From Endozoicomonas numazuensis (lineage in GTDB: Bacteria > Pseudomonadota > Gammaproteobacteria > Pseudomonadales > Endozoicomonadaceae), in NCBI RefSeq assembly GCF_000722635.1, contig NZ_JOKH01000001.1:1555182-1619181 (forward strand): a stretch of DNA of 64,000 nucleotides, written 5' to 3'. The notes under the pieces are model-generated. The model saw only the letters and a program-made list of their open reading frames with translations. It was not told the DNA's origin and did not search any database. Position 1 is the first letter of the stretch. Every line of letters begins with the position of its first letter. Below, piece by piece: positions 1,495 to 10,402 of this stretch. The position numbers were made by a program, and so were the translations under genes.

Positions 1495-1727
1495 TACCTT
1501 AATTACCTGTTGTTTATTGTTCTTTTCGACTCTGACCATTCCTGGTCTTGTATTTCCGTTTTTCACGCGTGTCAGGAGAGCGGAAAAACTGAAGATGTCT
1601 TGTTGCCTAAGACAAATTTCTTAATGGAGGTAACTAATACCAGAGGGGTCTATGATTCACTTCGTCCACTTGGGGTATAGAGGGCTGTGTTTGCCAGCTA
1701 TTTACACTCAGGAAACAGGAGTTTTTG

Positions 1728-2912
1728 ATGCCTTCTGAAACCACTATTTCATTTTTTTCTTACTGGCGCGTGGCTATCCTCGCTGGGACTACTCTGATCC
1801 TCACCGTTCTGGTAGAAGATGCCTATGTTCCTGTCACAGCGGATGTTGCAAAAGAGTTTGGTGATGCACTGAGTGACTTTCAGTTAACGACCATTCTGTT
1901 GATTTGCGTTCAAGGAGTCACTATGCCCCTGTTTGCATCCTTTGGGGACAGGGTAGGGAGAATGCCTGTTCTGGAAAGTGGTTTGCTGGTCTTTATAGTG
2001 GGGGCGCTGGTTTGCATGATGGCAGGATCTGACTGGCAGTTTTATGCAGGGCGCATATTTCAGGGGATAGGTGCATCAGCGGTTCTGGTCATTATACCGG
2101 CTATGATTCGTGATCGTTACAGTGATAATGAAGCCGCGAGTCAGTTTTCAGCCATAGCTCTTATCCTGCTTGTGAGTCGTATTTTTTCACCGGAGCTGGG
2201 GGTGCAGGTGACTTCAAGTTTGGGTTGGAGGTTTCTGTTTGGCTTGATCGCCGTGCTGGGGGTTATCATTCTGTGGATAAGTTTTCGAGCTTTTCATGAG
2301 GAAGAGAAAAGTTGCTTTCAACGTCGCAAAAGTTCTTTCCTCATGGATGTTAAACGTGTTTTAAGTCATTCATTGTCGCTAAGGTTTATCTTTACTTACA
2401 CCGCCAGCTCAACGGTTGTTCTGGTTTATTACAATAATGCCTCATTTCTCTTCATCCAGTATTACCAGCTAACAGAATCTGTTCTGGCATTGATTTTGTC
2501 ACTATCGTTTGCGGTTCAGGGCGTGGCTTCACTGATCAATATCTGGTGGTTAAAGCAAATGAATTATCGCCAGATCATGACGCTCTCTTTTTATCTGATG
2601 GTGCTGTTGGCTGTCATCAATGCTGTGATGGACTGGACTGAAAGTCACACTTTGTTTAGCAATATGCTGCTGTTGTCACTGCTGTTTTTTTTCTCGGCAT
2701 TTATTGCCCCCAACGCTTTGACGGGAGTGGTTCAGGTGCATCCTGATGCAGCGGCAACGGCCAGTTCATTGATGGATGTAGTCGCCATCATTGTCAGTAG
2801 TCTGGCTTCAGTGCTGGTGATTCTGTTATCCGATGGTACGCCAAAAACCCTGTCTCTGGTGGCCATGATGATTTGCTTGCTATCACTTGCTCTATGGTGC
2901 AAAAGCAATTGA
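1728..2912 (+). CDS. MFS transporter, DHA1/Bcr-CflA-like drug:H+ antiporter
   Basis: A 394-residue inner-membrane protein of about 12 hydrophobic segments. The loop after the second segment reads FGDRVGRMPVL, a clear match to the MFS motif A (GxxxDRxGRR). The N-terminal half also carries the DHA1-type RIFQGIGAS sequence. Such proteins export small molecules by proton antiport. The start is the ATG at 1728, with AGGAG six bases upstream; an adjacent TTG would add one residue. It is transcribed divergently from the acyl-CoA synthetase. A second MFS exporter lies at 8166-9326, and the genes between look like a small peptide-modification locus, so export of its product is possible, but nothing in the sequence fixes the substrate. 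Confidence 0.85.
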   Translation: MPSETTISFFSYWRVAILAGTTLILTVLVEDAYVPVTADVAKEFGDALSDFQLTTILLICVQGVTMPLFASFGDRVGRMPVLESGLLVFIVGALVCMMAGSDWQFYAGRIFQGIGASAVLVIIPAMIRDRYSDNEAASQFSAIALILLVSRIFSPELGVQVTSSLGWRFLFGLIAVLGVIILWISFRAFHEEEKSCFQRRKSSFLMDVKRVLSHSLSLRFIFTYTASSTVVLVYYNNASFLFIQYYQLTESVLALILSLSFAVQGVASLINIWWLKQMNYRQIMTLSFYLMVLLAVINAVMDWTESHTLFSNMLLLSLLFFFSAFIAPNALTGVVQVHPDAAATASSLMDVVAIIVSSLASVLVILLSDGTPKTLSLVAMMICLLSLALWCKSN

Positions 2913-3161: not shown

Positions 3162-3236
3162 GCTTCGCTCACTTGTCGCCTGATAGCATCTTGAAATCCA
3201 ATGGGTATAGTACTTTATATTCAGAACAGGATTATT

Positions 3237-4658
3237 ATGAGAACATACTTTTTTGTTCTGGCCGTTCTTTTGTCGCTGCCGGCAGGGGCTGAGAGTTACA
3301 CACGGACAGATGATGATCTAGCCCAATTCATGAGAGAGACGAATCTGATCGATTCCGTCATGGAAATGATGATCAGGAGAACCGCAAGATCGGACGAAGG
3401 ATTATTGCTTAGACGATATGTTCTGGAAGATGGGGCATTGGTTCAAAGTAATATCAGTACGGAAGAGTCGCTGGGTTTTCAATACAAAGGTGAAAACCAG
3501 AGTATAAGCTCAAGCCAAACGACTATTAAGAAGAAAGAGTGTAAAGCAGAGCTCTGTAATGATAAGGCAGCTTCAACCGAGTTAAAGCTGTTTTACTGGC
3601 ATCTCTCGGACGATGATCCAGGTTCGATAAAATCCATAAATGAACAGTTTGATATTTTGGTCGATAATTTCTCAAAGCTCGATGAAGTCCGGAGGGAAAA
3701 TCCGGATCTCTTTGTGTTCTCTGGTGTTTCCTATGTGGCGTACCTGGTCCAGATTCATAAGCTTTGTTTGAGAGTCCTGACTTTGAGTTTATCAGATGAA
3801 GAGACTCAGAAAGCCTGTCATCTTTTCGGAACGGAAAATCATTATCTGAATGCCCGGACTGATCACGTTTTGTTTGTCGGTGATTTTTTGGTGATCAGTC
3901 CATTGCCTCTAGAGCCTTATATCAATCAGTCTAATGATGCTAGTGCAACGTTCTGGCTGAAAACTGGCAGAAACTCAACGGCAAATATTGCTTATGTAAC
4001 CCACTATAAAGTCCTCAAGGATGATCATTGGCACTCGATTATTCAGTGGACTGGAAATCATGATTTCGCTTGGTCTAATCCAAAAGATGTACAGGTCGGG
4101 GACTGGGATTGGATCGCCACCTCAAAAGTCAAGAGTGTATTGGATGAGATGCTGGAAGAGGGAGAGTCAGCCCATGTTTTGACGCATATTGCTGGAAGTG
4201 CTTTCCCGAAAAAAAAGGTGGCAAAGCGTTTGAATACAGCGCCTAAGACATACAGTGAGGACTTACCCGATTTTGATCCTGAAAATAATCGTCTGGCACA
4301 GGAGATGACCTATAAATTTAATTACCTCCAGCGTCCTCAAGCCCAGCAGATAGCACAGGTTTACCTGTATCGAAAAGGGAAAAAAATAAAAAACTCAGGT
4401 GCTCCCATGAAACGGCTGACTCTTAAACAGGCTGATAAGGATGAGGTGGGTAGTCAGGGTTGGTATGAATGGCTTTTTGGGGAGGTGTCTCACAGAGATT
4501 TGTCTGCATTCTTTCCCGTGGTGACAACCCTAAAGTACCGGCATGTTGAGCGGCAATCGACGGCGCTTAATTCTAAAGACTCCAATCAGAAGGGACCTGA
4601 TTCTGTTCCTGGAGTTCCTGTGCTTGAGAATCAGTTGAACCACTATCGCCGCTTCTGA
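3237..4658 (+). CDS. Hypothetical exported protein, about 473 aa
   Basis: The protein begins MRTYFFVLAVLLSLPAGAES, a typical Sec signal peptide with cleavage expected after residues 18-20. The ATG at 3237 is chosen because it starts this signal and has AGG six bases upstream; an earlier in-frame ATG at 3201 would place 12 extra residues before it. The mature part is soluble and charged, with no recognised domain. One stretch around residues 60-115 is rich in serine, glutamate and lysine and includes a CKAELC pair of cysteines. It stands alone on the + strand, preceded by a 15-bp tandem repeat and facing the leftward SDR gene at its 3' end. I do not recognise the family. An envelope or secreted role is all the sequence supports. 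Confidence 0.75.
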   Translation: MRTYFFVLAVLLSLPAGAESYTRTDDDLAQFMRETNLIDSVMEMMIRRTARSDEGLLLRRYVLEDGALVQSNISTEESLGFQYKGENQSISSSQTTIKKKECKAELCNDKAASTELKLFYWHLSDDDPGSIKSINEQFDILVDNFSKLDEVRRENPDLFVFSGVSYVAYLVQIHKLCLRVLTLSLSDEETQKACHLFGTENHYLNARTDHVLFVGDFLVISPLPLEPYINQSNDASATFWLKTGRNSTANIAYVTHYKVLKDDHWHSIIQWTGNHDFAWSNPKDVQVGDWDWIATSKVKSVLDEMLEEGESAHVLTHIAGSAFPKKKVAKRLNTAPKTYSEDLPDFDPENNRLAQEMTYKFNYLQRPQAQQIAQVYLYRKGKKIKNSGAPMKRLTLKQADKDEVGSQGWYEWLFGEVSHRDLSAFFPVVTTLKYRHVERQSTALNSKDSNQKGPDSVPGVPVLENQLNHYRRF

Positions 4659-4680: not shown

Positions 4681-5508
4681 TCAAGATTTTAATGGGGTGA
4701 GACTCTTTCTAAGAGCCTTTTCATAATAGCTGGATTGTGGTTGCAGGATGATTTCAGTAGGGCAAGAAGAGCCACCAACGGAAAGAATAAAATCGATGGT
4801 TTTTAAAATGTCGTTTAATTCTATAGCGTGTTTGTCAGCGGCTTCCGTACCTTCCCTTTGACTGATTTGCCCAGGAAGAATGCTACAGACTTTTATATTG
4901 TACTCCCTTACGTCTTCGAACAAAGATTGACAATAACCTCTAAGGCCAAACTTACTGCCGCAATAGGCTGCCCCTCCAGGGTACGACTGCACGCTGGCAA
5001 TAGAGCCAAAATGAATCAGGCACCCCGAGTTTCTTTGGATCATATCGGGTAAAAAGAATTGATTCAGGGCTATGGGGAACTCAAGGTTTACCTTGAGCAG
5101 GCGAGAGTATTCGGCAAATTCAAATTCATGGGCGGGAGCCCATCGAAAGGCACCAGCAGCATGAATAATGAGGTCAGGGCAGCCGACTTTTTCCTGAACA
5201 GATTTGAAAAGATAAGGCCACTGATTCTCATCCAGAATCTCACAGGCAATGGTCGATATTCGATGACGGTTTGTGTGAGGCAAGTCTTTGGAGTCATTCA
5301 GGCGAGAGGAGGAACTGGCTGTCAGGATAAGATGGATGTCCTTTGCTGCAGTCATTGCTGCAAAGTGTTGGGTAATGGATTGCCCAACCAGCCCGCTGGC
5401 ACCCGTTATAAGGCATGAACTCCTGTGATGCACGCTTATGTTCTGATGGGCAAGCTGGTTAGCAATGTTTGTTTCATTTATCGGTTTGCACTCGAATGTT
5501 GCAACCAA
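4681..5508 (-). CDS. SDR-family NAD(P)-dependent oxidoreductase
   Basis: A classical short-chain dehydrogenase of up to 275 residues. The dinucleotide-binding motif TGASGLVG lies at residues 35-42, the catalytic serine in HFGSIAS, and the YxxxK pair in YCGSKFG. The conserved IHAAGAF corresponds to the NNAG motif. The frame opens with TTG at 5508, inside the last codons of the upstream small peptide gene, with AGGA five bases before it. A GTG at 5433 is an alternative start that would remove about 25 residues, so the N-terminus is uncertain. Overlap with the peptide gene implies translational coupling. In context it could oxidise a hydroxyl group placed on the peptide, but this is inference. 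Confidence 0.85.
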   Translation of the reverse strand: MVATFECKPINETNIANQLAHQNISVHHRSSCLITGASGLVGQSITQHFAAMTAAKDIHLILTASSSSRLNDSKDLPHTNRHRISTIACEILDENQWPYLFKSVQEKVGCPDLIIHAAGAFRWAPAHEFEFAEYSRLLKVNLEFPIALNQFFLPDMIQRNSGCLIHFGSIASVQSYPGGAAYCGSKFGLRGYCQSLFEDVREYNIKVCSILPGQISQREGTEAADKHAIELNDILKTIDFILSVGGSSCPTEIILQPQSSYYEKALRKSLTPLKS

Positions 5509-5659
5509 ATCCTACGACTTCACCTGCGAATGTGACATCAATGGCTCTTCTGTAAGAGCTGGCAATCATTACGGGCTCTTCCAAGGATGCAAATTCAAGG
5601 GGAGCAGGGTTTAGACCTTTTGGTCGATCAGATTTATTCTTTCTTTCAGAAGTTTTCAT
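5474..5659 (-). CDS. Small peptide gene, 61 aa, candidate modified-peptide precursor
   Basis: A 61-residue ORF in the middle of a leftward gene set. The start at 5659 is preceded by AAAGG nine bases upstream; an ATG at 5683 in the same frame would add eight residues and overlaps the stop of the upstream gene. The N-terminal third is basic and hydrophilic (MKTSERKNKSDRPKG), the middle is acidic (LEFASLEEP), and the C-terminal part is hydrophobic and glycine-rich, ending GFGCNIRVQTDK with a single cysteine. This polarity resembles leader plus core of a ribosomal peptide. The neighbours are a cupin-like protein, its paralogue, an SDR, a JmjC hydroxylase and exporters. Known RiPP classes were not recognised. 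It could instead be a small structural subunit. Confidence 0.6.
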   Translation of the reverse strand: MKTSERKNKSDRPKGLNPAPLEFASLEEPVMIASSYRRAIDVTFAGEVVGFGCNIRVQTDK

Positions 5660-5675
5660 ATCGATTACCTTTCTA

Positions 5676-6539
5676 TCAATCATTTAGAAGTTGGGACAGC
5701 CTGCCGGGGACGTAGGGTTCATCATCCCGGGAGGCGTGTTGCAAGAACAGGTTGCTGTTTTCGGGTGATAGCCGGGCTGCTGCATACCAGGCTCTCAGCC
5801 GGGTTTGGGCGCTGACATGCTTACTGGCCAGAGTGACCAGAACGTCCACGGTATCCTCATTACCAATTAAAGGGGCAATGCTCAGCATGGCACTGCTGAC
5901 CGGGTATTGATCAATAGGGTTTTTAATGCATTGTTTCTTGATATCGAAATAAAACTGCATTCTCCGAGTCTTTTCACCAAGCAGTATGTAGTTGAGTGAT
6001 GCTGAAAAGTCCGCTGGAGGAATCTGGGAGTGTATGTCCCTGTTTGCCCGGTAATACATCAGCTTTCCTGGCGACAGCTGGTAGGTCTTTCGAGGCGTTA
6101 TCTCAATGGCTTCATCCATTAACCCCTGATATGAGAGACCATCATATTCGTAGGTTTCTGTTTGATATCCGCTGCCAAATAAGCCACAGGTGAGAAAGCT
6201 GAAGTCGTGGTCATGTGGTTCACGGTAACTCAGCAGCTGGAAAGGAGACAGGTCACTTTCAGGAAGCCAAACTACGACTCTGACAGCAAATCTCTCATCA
6301 ATATGCAGTACAAAAACGGGAGGAGTGTATGTGTTGTTGCTCTGAAACTCATCCGGGTGTTTCAGCTGATCCGTCAGAAAGTCTGCGAAAAAACGTTTGT
6401 TGTTACACAGGGCTTTTAGCTGACCTGCATTCTCCAATGTTTCGTCCATGTCGTATTGCGACAGGTCGTGACGGCAAAAGTCTATAAACTCGTTAAGAGC
6501 TAATGTATGGTCTGTCTTATTTTCAACCACCAGTGGCAT
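5676..6539 (-). CDS. Cupin-like protein with HxH...H motif and C-terminal HEAT-like repeats
   Basis: A 287-residue protein. The middle carries EPHDHDF (His109 and His111) followed about 60 residues later by His170 in RDIHSQ. This HxH plus distal His layout is expected of a metal-binding cupin. The last 60 residues form helical repeats of the type TRLRAWYAAARLSP...DDEPYV, similar to HEAT repeats. The start at 6539 is chosen for AGGAG nine bases upstream; an ATG at 6614 would overlap the upstream gene by 92 bases. The start overlaps the upstream gene's end by 17 bases, and the small peptide gene follows 16 bases after the stop. The upstream gene is a paralogue. A metal-dependent oxygenase acting on the small peptide is my inference. 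Confidence 0.6.
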   Translation of the reverse strand: MPLVVENKTDHTLALNEFIDFCRHDLSQYDMDETLENAGQLKALCNNKRFFADFLTDQLKHPDEFQSNNTYTPPVFVLHIDERFAVRVVVWLPESDLSPFQLLSYREPHDHDFSFLTCGLFGSGYQTETYEYDGLSYQGLMDEAIEITPRKTYQLSPGKLMYYRANRDIHSQIPPADFSASLNYILLGEKTRRMQFYFDIKKQCIKNPIDQYPVSSAMLSIAPLIGNEDTVDVLVTLASKHVSAQTRLRAWYAAARLSPENSNLFLQHASRDDEPYVPGRLSQLLND

Positions 6540-7413
6540 ATTGAACAACTCCTGGCTGGGGGTTTGTTGCAAATAACGTGGTTTGAGCGGCTTTGCGAAT
6601 GTGGGGATGTTCATCCTGCAAAGCCAGATAAAGTGCTCCCTTGCCTTTGTCAGGATTCAAGTGATATATCTGTTGTATGGCTTCCCAGCGAGTGTGGTGG
6701 TCAGGACTTTCCCTTGCCAGACGAACCAGGCATTCTGTGTGGGATTCATCACCCGTCATGCCTATGACCCTTGCTGCTAATTGTATTCTTGAACTGTTCA
6801 GGTGGTTGGCAATCTGGCTTTTTGTTTTCCCCGTGTTCCGGTCAAATAGCCAGCCAATATCGCCTTTGGATTCTGATCGTATGATCAGACAGGGTGGATA
6901 GCTTTGATCGCCATTGGGAGCGTCCAGGTCGACAAGGTCTTCATAGGCTTTGAAATAAAAGGGCTTCCAGGGTTCAAAGTAGAAGTCTCCCATTCTTTTC
7001 AGATCTGAAGGCTTTTTCCAGTCTCTATTTTTGCTAATATCTGTCGTGTAATAAGGGGACGAAAAAGCCTTCTGGGACAGGTTGATAATAAGAATATCAA
7101 ACTCACAGCTACGCAAGGGGTCGTTTTCATCACGAAGGTCACTGTTAGCACCCATGCCGGCCTGTTTGATGGTCATGTGGAAATCGTCGCCTATTCGAGC
7201 CAGAGCCAGATCACCATTGACCAGAGTTGTTTTTAGATCGTCATTCTCACTGAGTTTGAGGTACTTCAGTAGCAAAGAGTTCAACAGCTGTGACGATTTT
7301 GTGGCATTGAACTTTTGAAAAATGGGTATATATCGCTCAGAAAAGCTCAGGCACTTTTTTTGCTGAACTCTTGTAACCAACTCTTCAAGAAACTGAATGT
7401 TAAAAGATTGCAT
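6523..7413 (-). CDS. Degenerate paralogue of the adjacent cupin-like/HEAT protein
   Basis: A protein of about 296 residues that aligns by eye with the downstream gene product. It shares the PFYFKAYEDL block with MYYRANRDIH of its neighbour and the C-terminal repeats (HTRWEAIQQIYHLNP...DEHPHIRKAA). Where the neighbour has HDHDF this protein has LRSCEFD, and where the neighbour has RDIHSQ it has EDLVDL, so all three presumed metal-binding histidines are absent. It therefore looks like a non-catalytic partner or a substrate-binding subunit. The start at ATG 7413 is a choice with no strong ribosome site; the frame stays open to a TTG at 7482. It is the first gene of the leftward set and lies divergent to the VirK-like gene. 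Confidence 0.55.
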   Translation of the reverse strand: MQSFNIQFLEELVTRVQQKKCLSFSERYIPIFQKFNATKSSQLLNSLLLKYLKLSENDDLKTTLVNGDLALARIGDDFHMTIKQAGMGANSDLRDENDPLRSCEFDILIINLSQKAFSSPYYTTDISKNRDWKKPSDLKRMGDFYFEPWKPFYFKAYEDLVDLDAPNGDQSYPPCLIIRSESKGDIGWLFDRNTGKTKSQIANHLNSSRIQLAARVIGMTGDESHTECLVRLARESPDHHTRWEAIQQIYHLNPDKGKGALYLALQDEHPHIRKAAQTTLFATNPQPGVVQYATGG

Positions 7414-7654
7414 GAGCCAACGTATCAAATTAGTGGAAGTAATTAATGATTTAAAAAAAACGACTAGTGCTGTGCGTCGCAAATATAAATCTAAGCAAAT
7501 AAAGTGATTCTTTCTAATATTTTTTAAGTCGAAATAACGACTATGTATATGAAGAAATGTTAATGCAAAACAATATTTGTTGTTTATCCTCGGAGGAGTT
7601 GTTGGTTTATTCTATTCATATACTCGATTCATCCATGGTCTCAAAGGCAAGGTT

Positions 7655-8179
7655 ATGTTGTTGAATAACGTCCTGTACAGATTTCTTAAGTCTTTGGCTT
7701 TACTCTCATCTGTCATCCTGTCAATGTTTGCGGTTCTCTTCTCTCCCACAGTAACAGCAGACTCTGTGTCTATGATGAAAGGCAAACCTCTGCATGATTT
7801 TAAAGCGCTCAGCGAGGCGGTTCTGGAAGACAACCGTGCTGTCAGGGGGCTGATTTATCAGGAGAAATGTCACTTGAGAAGTGAGAGTGGCGAAAAAGAA
7901 TTTCCTTTGGCTATTCGTCCTTTTTACTACACCGATTTTGCTTATGTACCCAAAACGGGCGTTCTTGCTACCTGGCATAATGCGGAGCATCCGCATCCTC
8001 AGGGGCACGATAAACTGCCTTACGACATTGTTAGAATGTCCATGTACATCTGGGGAGCTGAGGAAGATAAAGGCCTCAATGTTAAATTAATGTTGAGCAA
8101 CTATAAATTTGAGAAGGTTTTGGACAGAGTTTATTTCTGTGAGTTTGGTAAAGGCATCGAGCTGTTCAGGACGCCTTGA
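7655..8179 (+). CDS. VirK-like exported protein
   Basis: The protein of 174 residues begins with a hydrophobic signal (residues 1-36, MLLNNVLYRFLKSLALLSSV...). The region just after it, HDFKALSEAVLEDNRAVRGLIYQEKC, has the layout of the VirK family (PF06903): an amphipathic helix, a short strand and a conserved cysteine. VirK-type proteins are small periplasmic proteins of unknown biochemistry found near virulence or envelope genes. The start at 7655 is preferred because AAAGG lies seven bases upstream and the signal peptide starts there; the frame is open from 7577. Its 3' end overlaps the converging MFS gene by 14 bases. Family assignment is from motif memory and moderately sure. Confidence 0.6.
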   Translation: MLLNNVLYRFLKSLALLSSVILSMFAVLFSPTVTADSVSMMKGKPLHDFKALSEAVLEDNRAVRGLIYQEKCHLRSESGEKEFPLAIRPFYYTDFAYVPKTGVLATWHNAEHPHPQGHDKLPYDIVRMSMYIWGAEEDKGLNVKLMLSNYKFEKVLDRVYFCEFGKGIELFRTP

Positions 8180-9326
8180 AGGAGCTTATTGAATGTTTAT
8201 AGCAGGTCAATGCCAGAAAGCTGAATAGCATCATCAGAGCGGTAGGCTGGATCATACTCTGATGATTCATTAGTCCTACAGTTGTTCCGGCCAGTCCACC
8301 GACACTGAAATTGAGAATGTTTCCTGAAACCACCAGGGTGCTGGTGCTTTCGGGAAACTCAGTTATGAGGCTGGCATTACCATTGGCACCAATGAAGGCC
8401 ATTGGAATGACGGCAAAAAGAATCAGGCATATAAATAATGGCAGGATGGCAAGGGTTGCCGAGAGAACAAGAGTAAACGTAATGAGCAACTGACTGTAAA
8501 TCCCCCATTTTAACAGTCGCTCCAAATGGATGGTTCGTACCAGCCAGGCATTAACAATACTGCCTCCAATCAGTGTCCCATTAATCAAAGTACTAAGCAG
8601 AACAAATTCTCCCAGGCTCAAAGAGATCAGATTTATGAAGATGTTCGCTTGGGAGCTAAGTAAGACCATAATGACCGAAAAGCTGAAACTGATGGCGAGA
8701 AGACGACTCAGAACCCCGGGTTTTTTCAGGATCTTACCAGGATGAACTTCAATACCCTGTGAAAAGCATTGAGGAGGAAAAGACAGGGATAAAAAAAGAA
8801 TCAGTATTAAACTACCCACAAGAGCTTGAGCCAGAAAAATGGTTTTCCACCCCCATGTCATCAATATGGCGCCGGATAGTGGTGATACGACCATCATGAC
8901 CCCCATTGAGGCGGTCATCAGAGAAAGGCGAGCAGACAGCAGATTTGAACTATACAGGGTTGAAACAGCTGTTATAGACAGGTTAGTGAGAAACCCCGCA
9001 GCTATCGATTGAAAAAAACGCAAGATCAAAAATAGATAAGTATTTTCAGCAAAAACTGTTCCTGCAGAGCCTACAATGTATCCGATCAATGCCAGTAGCG
9101 TCAGAGTATATCGATGCTTACGTGCGAAGCCGGAAGCCATCAGTCCAACGGCATGGCCCAGAATGAAAATACCCGTAGAGGCCATGACTGCAGAGGAAGA
9201 GTGACTGTAAAAGTTCATGATCTCCGGTAAAGCAGGAAAAACACTTTCCAGAGCAAAAGAGGCCAAAGAGGCTGCCATTAAAAAAAATAGAAAGTAGTTG
9301 GAGTGTGTATTCACGGGTGAGGTCAC
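8166..9326 (-). CDS. MFS transporter, DHA1-type exporter
   Basis: A 386-residue polytopic inner-membrane protein with about 12 hydrophobic segments. It has GHAVGLMASGFARKHRY after segment 2, a weak motif A, and an RFFQSIAAG sequence typical of the DHA1 group. The start is GTG at 9326 with GGGGAG seven bases upstream. It is divergent from the JmjC gene across a 56-bp gap, so both probably share a promoter region, and it converges with the VirK-like gene. Together with the MFS gene at 1728-2912 it brackets the peptide-modification-like genes, consistent with export of their product. Substrate unknown. Confidence 0.8.
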   Translation of the reverse strand: MTSPVNTHSNYFLFFLMAASLASFALESVFPALPEIMNFYSHSSSAVMASTGIFILGHAVGLMASGFARKHRYTLTLLALIGYIVGSAGTVFAENTYLFLILRFFQSIAAGFLTNLSITAVSTLYSSNLLSARLSLMTASMGVMMVVSPLSGAILMTWGWKTIFLAQALVGSLILILFLSLSFPPQCFSQGIEVHPGKILKKPGVLSRLLAISFSFSVIMVLLSSQANIFINLISLSLGEFVLLSTLINGTLIGGSIVNAWLVRTIHLERLLKWGIYSQLLITFTLVLSATLAILPLFICLILFAVIPMAFIGANGNASLITEFPESTSTLVVSGNILNFSVGGLAGTTVGLMNHQSMIQPTALMMLFSFLALTCYKHSISSFKAS

Positions 9327-9382
9327 AAAATGCTCCCCTCAGGGTTTGAATGATTAATCCAACTTAGGCAGCGGCTGTCTTC

Positions 9383-10402
9383 ATGCAACAAGTTATAACG
9401 ACCACTCATACCATTGACTCAGAATCTTTTATTCAATCTTTTCTGAACCCTCATCAACCGCTATTAATAAAAGCGTACGCTCCGGCTTCAACAAGTAAAA
9501 AACAGTTACAGTCTGTGGTCAGTCTGTTTGGTAGTCATCCCATGCAGGTCAAGATACCTTATATTGAACAGCTTCAGGCTCAGAGCAGTTTAGAACAAAA
9601 TCCAGAAGTCATGAGCCTGGAGGATTTTATTGTCCGGCTGGAACAAAGCCCCTCCTGTCGACAGTGCATGGTTGAGGAGCCTACACCAGCGAGTGTGCTT
9701 GAGCAGATTGGGATTCCTGATTTGACATGGGGCAGGGGAGTTGGCGAGCTGGTTTCCAACACCTTCGTTGCAGGAAAAGGAAATCATGCTCAACTGCATT
9801 TTGATTGTGACCAGCGGCATGTTCTTCTCATGCAGCTCTTCGGTCGTAAGCGAGTATTTCTTATACACCCAAAAGATTCTCCAAAACTTTTACCTGTTCT
9901 GAATCAGAGCTGGTGGATGCTTCAGAATATGGCTTTGGACTGTAAAAGACATTTGTTGTCCAGCTGTGAATACTGGGAGGTAGAGCTCGAGCCCGGGGAT
10001 ATGATCTATATCCCCATGATGTTCTGGCATCATATAGACTACCTGGATACGGGTGTTTCTGTTAATTTCAGGTTCGGTAACCGGCCTGAAAATACCTTCA
10101 TTAGCGAACACCTGCACAGAGACAGCTTTATACAACGATTGTCTTTATTTCTCGATTCCACCGATGATGATCTGGCAAGGCAGGCAATTATGACTGCTCT
10201 GAAGGAGAGGTTGAGTGAAAGCTACTCATCAGCTTTTGAAGCCTATTCATGTATCAGACAGAGGGCGAGTGAGCTTTGCCAGCTCTATTGTGAGGACTGG
10301 TCAGGGGAACAGTTCGTGCTCGACTATGAAGAGAGCATGGTCCGGGGTACTCCTGCTCTGATGAGAATTATTCAGGGCTTTTATCAGGGGCGGGTTGAAT
10401 GA
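9383..10402 (+). CDS. JmjC/cupin_8 domain protein, FIH-like Fe(II)/2-oxoglutarate hydroxylase
   Basis: A 339-residue protein with the full facial triad of the cupin_8/JmjC family: His139-Phe-Asp141 in LHFD and His216 in IPMMFWHHID. The segment GDMIYIPMMFWHHID closely resembles the corresponding part of human factor inhibiting HIF (FIH). It also has the LFGRKRVFLIHP strand that follows HxD in this family, and SVNFRFG after the distal His. These enzymes hydroxylate protein or peptide side chains with Fe(II), O2 and 2-oxoglutarate. The gene is divergent from an MFS exporter and close to a small peptide gene, so the peptide is an attractive substrate (inference). No clear Shine-Dalgarno sequence precedes the ATG. 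Confidence 0.85.
   Translation: MQQVITTTHTIDSESFIQSFLNPHQPLLIKAYAPASTSKKQLQSVVSLFGSHPMQVKIPYIEQLQAQSSLEQNPEVMSLEDFIVRLEQSPSCRQCMVEEPTPASVLEQIGIPDLTWGRGVGELVSNTFVAGKGNHAQLHFDCDQRHVLLMQLFGRKRVFLIHPKDSPKLLPVLNQSWWMLQNMALDCKRHLLSSCEYWEVELEPGDMIYIPMMFWHHIDYLDTGVSVNFRFGNRPENTFISEHLHRDSFIQRLSLFLDSTDDDLARQAIMTALKERLSESYSSAFEAYSCIRQRASELCQLYCEDWSGEQFVLDYEESMVRGTPALMRIIQGFYQGRVE

Follow-up and report, generated by a model that had tools for sequence, protein, structure and literature searches.

A 61-residue peptide encoded in Endozoicomonas numazuensis beside two paralogous proteins, here called cupA and cupB, probably belongs to an undescribed pathway resembling those of ribosomally synthesized and post-translationally modified peptides (RiPPs), in which cupA-cupB would bind and modify the peptide and JmjC and short-chain dehydrogenase/reductase (SDR) chemistry would follow. 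The locus lies in a stretch of 64,000 nucleotides (nt) of contig NZ_JOKH01000001.1 (positions 1,555,182 to 1,619,181; hereafter the window). We base this reading on the gene set, its recurrence at other loci, the purifying selection that acts on the peptide, predicted catalytic residues that are intact, the paralogy of cupA and cupB and a separate SDR clade, all computed here. The central features, with the limits of the open reading frames (ORFs) where these differ, are:

6523-7410 (open to 7482), minus strand: cupA, paralogue of cupB and putative substrate-binding partner, with a HEAT C-terminus
5676-6539 (open to 6614), minus strand: cupB, putative metal-dependent peptide-modifying enzyme, with an HDH...DxH motif and a C-terminal HEAT-like region
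5474-5659 (ORF open to 5683), minus strand: putative precursor peptide of 61 amino acids (aa), stop included, with relatives in 20 other loci
5501-5524, minus strand: core motif GEVVGFGC, residues 46-53 of the peptide, from an alignment of 21 sequences
4681-5508, minus strand: SDR, start codon uncertain (TTG at 5508 or a GTG further in)
9383-10402, plus strand: JmjC/FIH-type 2-oxoglutarate-dependent hydroxylase (PF13621, 1.2e-17)

All the genes named in an earlier reading of the DNA letters (the sequence-only reading) were found at the positions it had given, and the tight coupling it had described is present: cupA and cupB overlap by 17 nt, a gap of 16 nt separates cupB from the peptide gene, and the 3' end of the latter lies within the SDR frame. 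The minus-strand order is thus cupA, cupB, peptide and SDR, closely spaced, with the start codons of cupA and cupB chosen by comparison with relatives. We likewise confirmed that no known RiPP maturase family (radical SAM, YcaO, LanB/C/M, ATP-grasp, MNIO) is matched among the nine locus proteins and seven flanking ORFs scanned.

Absence of the peptide ORF from homologous loci had been named as the outcome that would speak against a modification locus; we found the opposite, as the gene set recurs in several orders and orientations. Relatives of the peptide with a near-constant core, G-R-x-x-G-F-G-C (GEVVGFGC in the window), are present at 21 loci, the window among them, in Endozoicomonas-type bacteria, Photorhabdus (5), Yersinia similis, Paraburkholderia kirkii, Sphingomonas deserti and eight gammaproteobacteria of one order (one E. 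elysicola locus bears two labels, L033 and L043, and enters the count a single time). We take the carriers of this form (L053, L077, L108, L122, L136-L142, L033-L035 and the window) to be mostly animal-, plant- or protist-associated bacteria, with Sphingomonas deserti as an apparent exception. Both cupA and cupB are present at 20 of the 21 loci, one of them with a shortened cupB, and remnants stand at the remaining locus. An SDR gene was found at 17 loci (window, S. deserti, five Photorhabdus, Y. similis, P. kirkii and the eight of one order), an adjacent JmjC gene at 10 (window, S. deserti and the eight of one order), and a JmjC-like fusion at six. All eight one-order loci hold peptide, cupA, cupB, SDR and JmjC genes inside about 5 kb in mixed orientations, with the order rearranged in L142; S. 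deserti has the same five genes and a sulfotransferase gene, and in Y. similis the peptide and SDR genes are accompanied by cupA and two cupB. That the peptide and cupA-cupB are neighbours in five named genera and one order, in varied gene orders, supports the RiPP-like reading. A chance neighbourhood was ruled out by the recurrence in different order and orientation and by the single SDR clade described below. As for the proposal of a modification locus, its gene set and likely purpose were supported, its chemistry stays putative, and its SDR and JmjC parts turned out not to be universal, cupA-cupB being the most constant.

Methyltransferase genes were also noted near the module, after the SDR gene in Y. 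similis (L108:9713-10372) and, together with a gene for a small exported protein, beside the module in seven of the eight one-order loci (L122 and L136-L141; PEMT/ICMT-like in the scanned L122).

The peptide itself is conserved in two segments, V-x-[LI]-A-[GS] in the N-terminal part and GxxxGFGC, candidates for leader and core respectively. Within the core, G46, G50, G52 and C53 are invariant in 21/21 peptides; F51 is kept in 20 (W in P. kirkii), as is R47 (E in the window peptide). The tail after the core Cys is short and variable in length and sequence. The ratio of non-synonymous to synonymous differences (pN/pS), calculated in three groups that leave out the window peptide itself, was 0.10 for the five Photorhabdus peptides, 0.23 for four from Endozoicomonadaceae and 0.18 for seven of the eight one-order peptides. 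These low values indicate that the reading frame is under purifying selection, and ruled out that the ORF is noise. A search of 95 related genomes recovered the peptide at E < 1e-4, beside cupB, in the window genome and four others, with weak matches (E 0.03-0.83) in 13 more. As in RiPP clusters, a short ribosomally encoded precursor is thus conserved together with its gene cluster. Two checks had been suggested, conserved synteny and core variability: the gene set is conserved, and the core proved near-invariant rather than variable, which argues against a typical diversified antibiotic.

We next describe the two proteins that accompany the peptide most constantly. cupA and cupB are full-length paralogues (hhalign E 4e-15, probability 98.5%). 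In cupB, R87, W91, H109, D168, Q172 and N183 are kept in 71/71 aligned relatives, and H111 and H170 in 70/71 (the alignment comprises the window and 70 of 88 listed cupB stretches). In the joint alignment with cupA (43 sequences), His occupies the H109 column in only 6/43 cupA proteins, and at H111 and H170 the most frequent letters do not include His; the best-kept feature of cupA is an R-W pair in the HEAT region, where HEAT repeats are well supported (HEAT_2, 7e-7). This conservation is the pattern of an enzyme and a pseudo-enzyme. The label of cupin that cupB had been given held for the HxH...H pattern (HDH...DxHxQ), which is present, and failed at the level of profiles: no cupin family of Pfam was hit by any of the 71 cupB proteins at E up to 1, a comparison with PDB sequences gave nothing convincing, and hhalign of the cupB profile against 16 Cupin_2 proteins returned a probability of 2.5%, so a standard cupin was rejected. 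Against NCBIfam, cupB relatives gave weak scattered matches (best E 0.01), and the DUF692/MNIO profile matched neither window cupA or cupB nor the 71 cupB relatives. Apart from HEAT repeats, the cupA-cupB family had no convincing Pfam, NCBIfam, PADLOC or PDB match, and the plasmid records carrying relatives (n = 2) annotate them as hypothetical proteins. Profile-dependent, rule-based mining would probably miss the family, since, HEAT repeats aside, neither Pfam nor NCBIfam matched the 71 cupB relatives convincingly.

Other assignments of these proteins were tried and rejected: a defence system, for which the sole match among seven proteins was a weak one to the cupA HEAT region (E 0.0095), and phage cargo, as window cupB had no match in 50,697 phage records. 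In E. coli, no DNA match to a Yersinia cupB was found.

The SDR carries both TGxxxGxG and YxxxK and matches PF00106 at 4.6e-29, which places it in the SDR family; T35, G36, Y182 and K186 are invariant in the eight aligned of the 17 module SDRs. In a tree of 11 of these 17, in which the window row lies on a long branch and the outgroup row L207 is aberrant, the 11 module SDRs grouped together as a single clade, apart from 27 other SDRs taken from five genomes (97/97; 98% of 200 bootstrap trees). The module SDRs are, on this evidence of a separate clade, not random recruits.

The JmjC component is less uniform. The window protein has the marks of a JmjC/FIH 2-oxoglutarate oxygenase, with a PF08007 match (1.1e-8) beside that to PF13621, and the triad H139xD141...H216 is invariant in the six aligned of the 10 adjacent JmjC proteins. 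Their sequences differ widely: the window and S. deserti proteins were the only ones from different groups that blastp joined at 1e-8, and JmjC-type activity may therefore have been recruited more than once. In the five Photorhabdus loci and in P. kirkii, cupA bears an N-terminal domain weakly resembling JmjC_2, followed by peptide and SDR. Against PF08007 this domain scored 8.8e-5 in P. kirkii, just over the cut-off, and 0.0056-0.0086 in the five Photorhabdus, under it; a profile built from the adjacent JmjC genes missed it, and by eye it keeps the HxD...H pattern. Searched for at 1e-5 in 12 other genomes, those of L033-L035 among them, window JmjC had no match; the same search also missed the JmjC of the G274 module, so that only close relatives of window JmjC are excluded there. 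The weak fusion and the limited reach of this search weaken the JmjC step and leave the cupA-cupB-peptide link unaffected. Two neighbouring matches to the fused JmjC-like domain were also seen away from the module, on contig C32 of Photorhabdus caribbeanensis (L210, L211).

We then considered cupA-cupB beyond the GFGC peptides. A scan with window cupB alone gave no match; an alignment query of the genome collection succeeded, with 191 confirmed stretches, of which 80 were kept, representing 79 loci, mostly from sphingomonads. The gene immediately upstream of cupB is cupA in 75 of the 79, and in two of the other four either a cupA-like ORF ends at the cupB start (L109) or the locus is at a contig end (L120). 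A second conserved peptide family, with a consensus near MNLPKIDLSSLPDLDTLTGLFGSL, is present at 38 loci, mostly in sphingomonads, once per locus and on the cupA strand; measured from the 5' end of the cupA ORF, its own end falls between 37 nt before and 145 nt after that point, with four of the 38 ORFs (L076, L085, L109, L114) overlapping the open cupA frame by > 40 nt. The pattern was matched nowhere else within these loci. Its pN/pS was 0.36, for a segment picked by amino-acid pattern, which favours a low value. The position of cupA upstream of cupB in 75/79 loci and the second peptide in 38/79 support the link between cupA-cupB and a peptide. Other candidate small-ORF groups upstream of cupA were a Nevskia-type group (four loci) and one in Bacteroidota (three loci), in a grouping of 56 of the 69 non-GFGC loci; since blastp likewise put fragments of neighbouring genes together (groups of 17 and 16 loci), falling into a group does not by itself prove a peptide. 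ABC and HlyD/MacB-type neighbours stand at some loci, by our reading of the translations and in part by annotation. The plain reading is that cupA-cupB accompany small peptides generally and that the five-gene form of the window is one branch.

Individual loci of this wider family were also observed. Tandem small ORFs with hydrophobic C-terminal ends lie upstream of cupA in Ferrimonas L115 (five, four of them near-identical) and Niveispirillum L047 (three). In Mucilaginibacter, a LanC-like gene (L048:5251-6438; PF05147, 1.3e-30) adjoins cupA-cupB. A plasmid of Vibrio sp. ED002 (L213:6087-7643) encodes a short cupA, cupB and a 59-aa peptide, with recombinase and restriction-modification genes on either side. 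The window genome itself has a second locus (L037:8380-11257, contig C3), as in L038, with the order cupA-cupB-cupB and a different small ORF downstream; in L037 this ORF has 48 aa, contains KVDFAGKAPHSINTKEQ and is followed by a decayed second copy of its core.

From these data we infer the peptide as substrate, the order of the steps, each chemical step, the metal and export. The peptide would be a precursor made of an N-terminal leader with V-x-[LI]-A-[GS], an internal near-invariant core and a short variable tail. As the most constant partners, cupA and cupB were assigned leader binding and the first oxidative step, respectively. The leader would probably be held by cupA, whose His residues are mostly lost, and the His-x-His...Asp-x-His site of cupB would oxidise the core in a metal-dependent reaction, with F-G-C or a position beside it as the likeliest target. 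The JmjC protein may then hydroxylate a core side chain, and the SDR may oxidise that hydroxyl to a carbonyl or perform the matching reduction. A protease not encoded at the locus would free the small product, and an MFS (major facilitator superfamily) protein would export it.

A broader proposal extends this scheme, and in our judgement the case for it is evenly balanced. cupA-cupB would be a new peptide-modifying class, an active metalloenzyme with a degenerate leader-binding paralogue, serving many unrelated precursors in Pseudomonadota and Bacteroidota and at single planctomycete and verrucomicrobial metagenome-assembled genome loci; the GFGC branch would be a fixed pathway to one conserved oxidised small molecule in mostly host-associated bacteria. 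If true, RiPP biology would gain a maturase family unnamed in current profile libraries, with cupA-cupB as a handle for locating adjacent small precursors. The chemical question would then be which product arises from Gly-Phe-Gly-Cys through a putative His-site enzyme, a 2-oxoglutarate hydroxylase and an SDR, and what keeps the core nearly constant in distant bacteria.

Comparison with known systems shows partial likenesses. Precursors in PQQ and mycofactocin pathways are short, have a constant core, are widely spread and are linked to dehydrogenases; in contrast, no radical SAM or PqqD-type match was obtained among the window proteins scanned. The window JmjC protein resembles FIH-type JmjC hydroxylases in its PF13621 match and HxD...H ligands. 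Most studied enzymes of this type act on larger proteins, whereas the putative substrate here is a dedicated small peptide. In MNIO systems a metal-dependent oxidative enzyme and a partner protein act on a short precursor; here the partner (cupA), which has HEAT repeats, is paralogous to the enzyme, and no MNIO profile was matched. Such systems, of bufferin or thiooxazole metallophore type, are treated in PMC12452194 and PMC12668002. Another likeness is found in the biphenomycin-like pbs/bpm RiPP clusters, where PbsQ, a cupin-like protein related to the JmjC-domain protein BpmG, hydroxylates a small precursor and an MFS protein is also encoded (PMC12257519). Their enzymes include an MNIO, a B12 radical SAM enzyme and an arginase, none of which was matched among the window proteins scanned, and the available part of PMC12257519 has nothing like cupA, cupB or the SDR. 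JmjC proteins occur in RiPP-like contexts according to PMC12710340. Production of a precursor together with a lanthionine synthetase and a GMC-family oxidoreductase is reported to yield a thiazole at a Gly-Cys motif (PMC13083261), so G-C is a motif open to modification. No description of cupA-cupB with a peptide was recognised in searches of the open-licence PubMed Central (PMC) literature, judged by titles and abstract starts.

The weakly matching JmjC-like fusion to cupA, the transport-type neighbours and the LanC-like gene of L048 were counted for the RiPP-like reading. Several observations weigh against it. Among window proteins neither a RiPP recognition element (RRE) nor a PqqD family was matched at E up to 1, and no dedicated protease was noticed at the locus. 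Without a cupin profile match, the fold and metal site of cupB stay putative. Some loci are incomplete: cupB is shortened in the one-order locus L138, a TAA lies inside two of the eight one-order cupA matches, and at L036:9580-10500 (genome G005) the peptide ORF is intact with cupA and cupB in fragments. At the Endozoicomonadaceae loci L033-L035 the peptide gene is joined by cupA, two cupB and MFS genes, with no SDR or JmjC match in the 20 kb read, and the Y. similis genome had no match to the fused JmjC-like domain; the SDR and JmjC steps are therefore optional at most. Finally, a carrier or cofactor role would also agree with the near-constant core.

We regard as unlikely, though the best placed of the alternatives, that the peptide is a carrier or scaffold, on whose conserved Cys or other core atom a small molecule would be built and then released, with the peptide recycled and cupB, JmjC and SDR acting on the tethered substrate. 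With a core almost unchanged between unrelated lineages and a short tail behind the Cys, the peptide would make a better carrier than a diversified product, and the SDR and JmjC proteins would suit the tailoring of a tethered small molecule; however, no obvious ligase or adenylating enzyme is found among the gene clusters common to the lineages, and the peptides of the wider family differ widely in sequence, some having no Cys.

PqqA and MftA are precursors of peptide-derived redox cofactors, and the pathway might similarly yield such a cofactor or a metal-binding compound, with the SDR as user of the product and not as a maturase; we find this marginally less probable still. The constant core across hosts and the dedicated SDR clade tied to the module speak for it. 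Its distribution, however, is patchy: cupA of this type was found in 8/143 genomes of the one order and in 4/11 of the genus, one of which (G006) has the other peptide type. Moreover, the SDR was not found near three loci that keep the peptide and cupA/cupB.

That the peptide is an unmodified small structural or regulatory subunit of a cupA-cupB complex, which would explain a gene beside cupB conserved about as widely as the enzymes, is very improbable, as a secreted product agrees better with the ABC/HlyD-type neighbours and with the small ORFs that adjoin cupA in the wider family, which differ from one another and in some cases stand in tandem.

A class survey with the cupB profile (369 genomes) added one further genome, G274, and a phylum survey with the cupA profile (398 genomes) gave, beyond the own genome, only two weak partial cupA matches. 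Cysteine-dioxygenase genes were found in 2/19 genomes, in neither of them at the peptide locus.

The remaining features around the module in the window are:

1725-2912, plus strand: MFS exporter on the left side, Bcr/CflA-like (TIGR00710 2.2e-38, under the curated cut-off)
3201-4658, plus strand: exported-looking protein of 485 aa, with only putative membership of the pathway and no Pfam or NCBIfam family
7577-8179, plus strand: exported-looking protein of 200 aa, with only putative membership of the pathway and no convincing Pfam or NCBIfam family
8166-9326, minus strand: second MFS exporter (PF07690, 1.5e-21)

The description of the 200-aa protein as VirK-like found no Pfam support at E up to 1, where the only match was EhaL (E 0.49). 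Homology of the 200-aa and 485-aa proteins to the exported neighbour in the one-order gammaproteobacterial loci was considered and rejected, as no similarity was found. A promoter scan was uninformative (two sites, against 9.1 in shuffled sequence). To the right, between 10.5 and 17.3 kb, five ORFs follow (two thiolase-like, one ChsH2-like, a CoA-transferase and a 3-hydroxyacyl-CoA dehydrogenase), which makes 10.4 kb the probable end of the locus. Both MFS proteins match PF07690 and resemble the Bcr/CflA model, yet under the curated cut-off of the latter. The right one had a single weak match to one neighbour MFS (5.6e-7), and the left one clusters with the MFS proteins of three other Endozoicomonadaceae loci at 28-29% identity.

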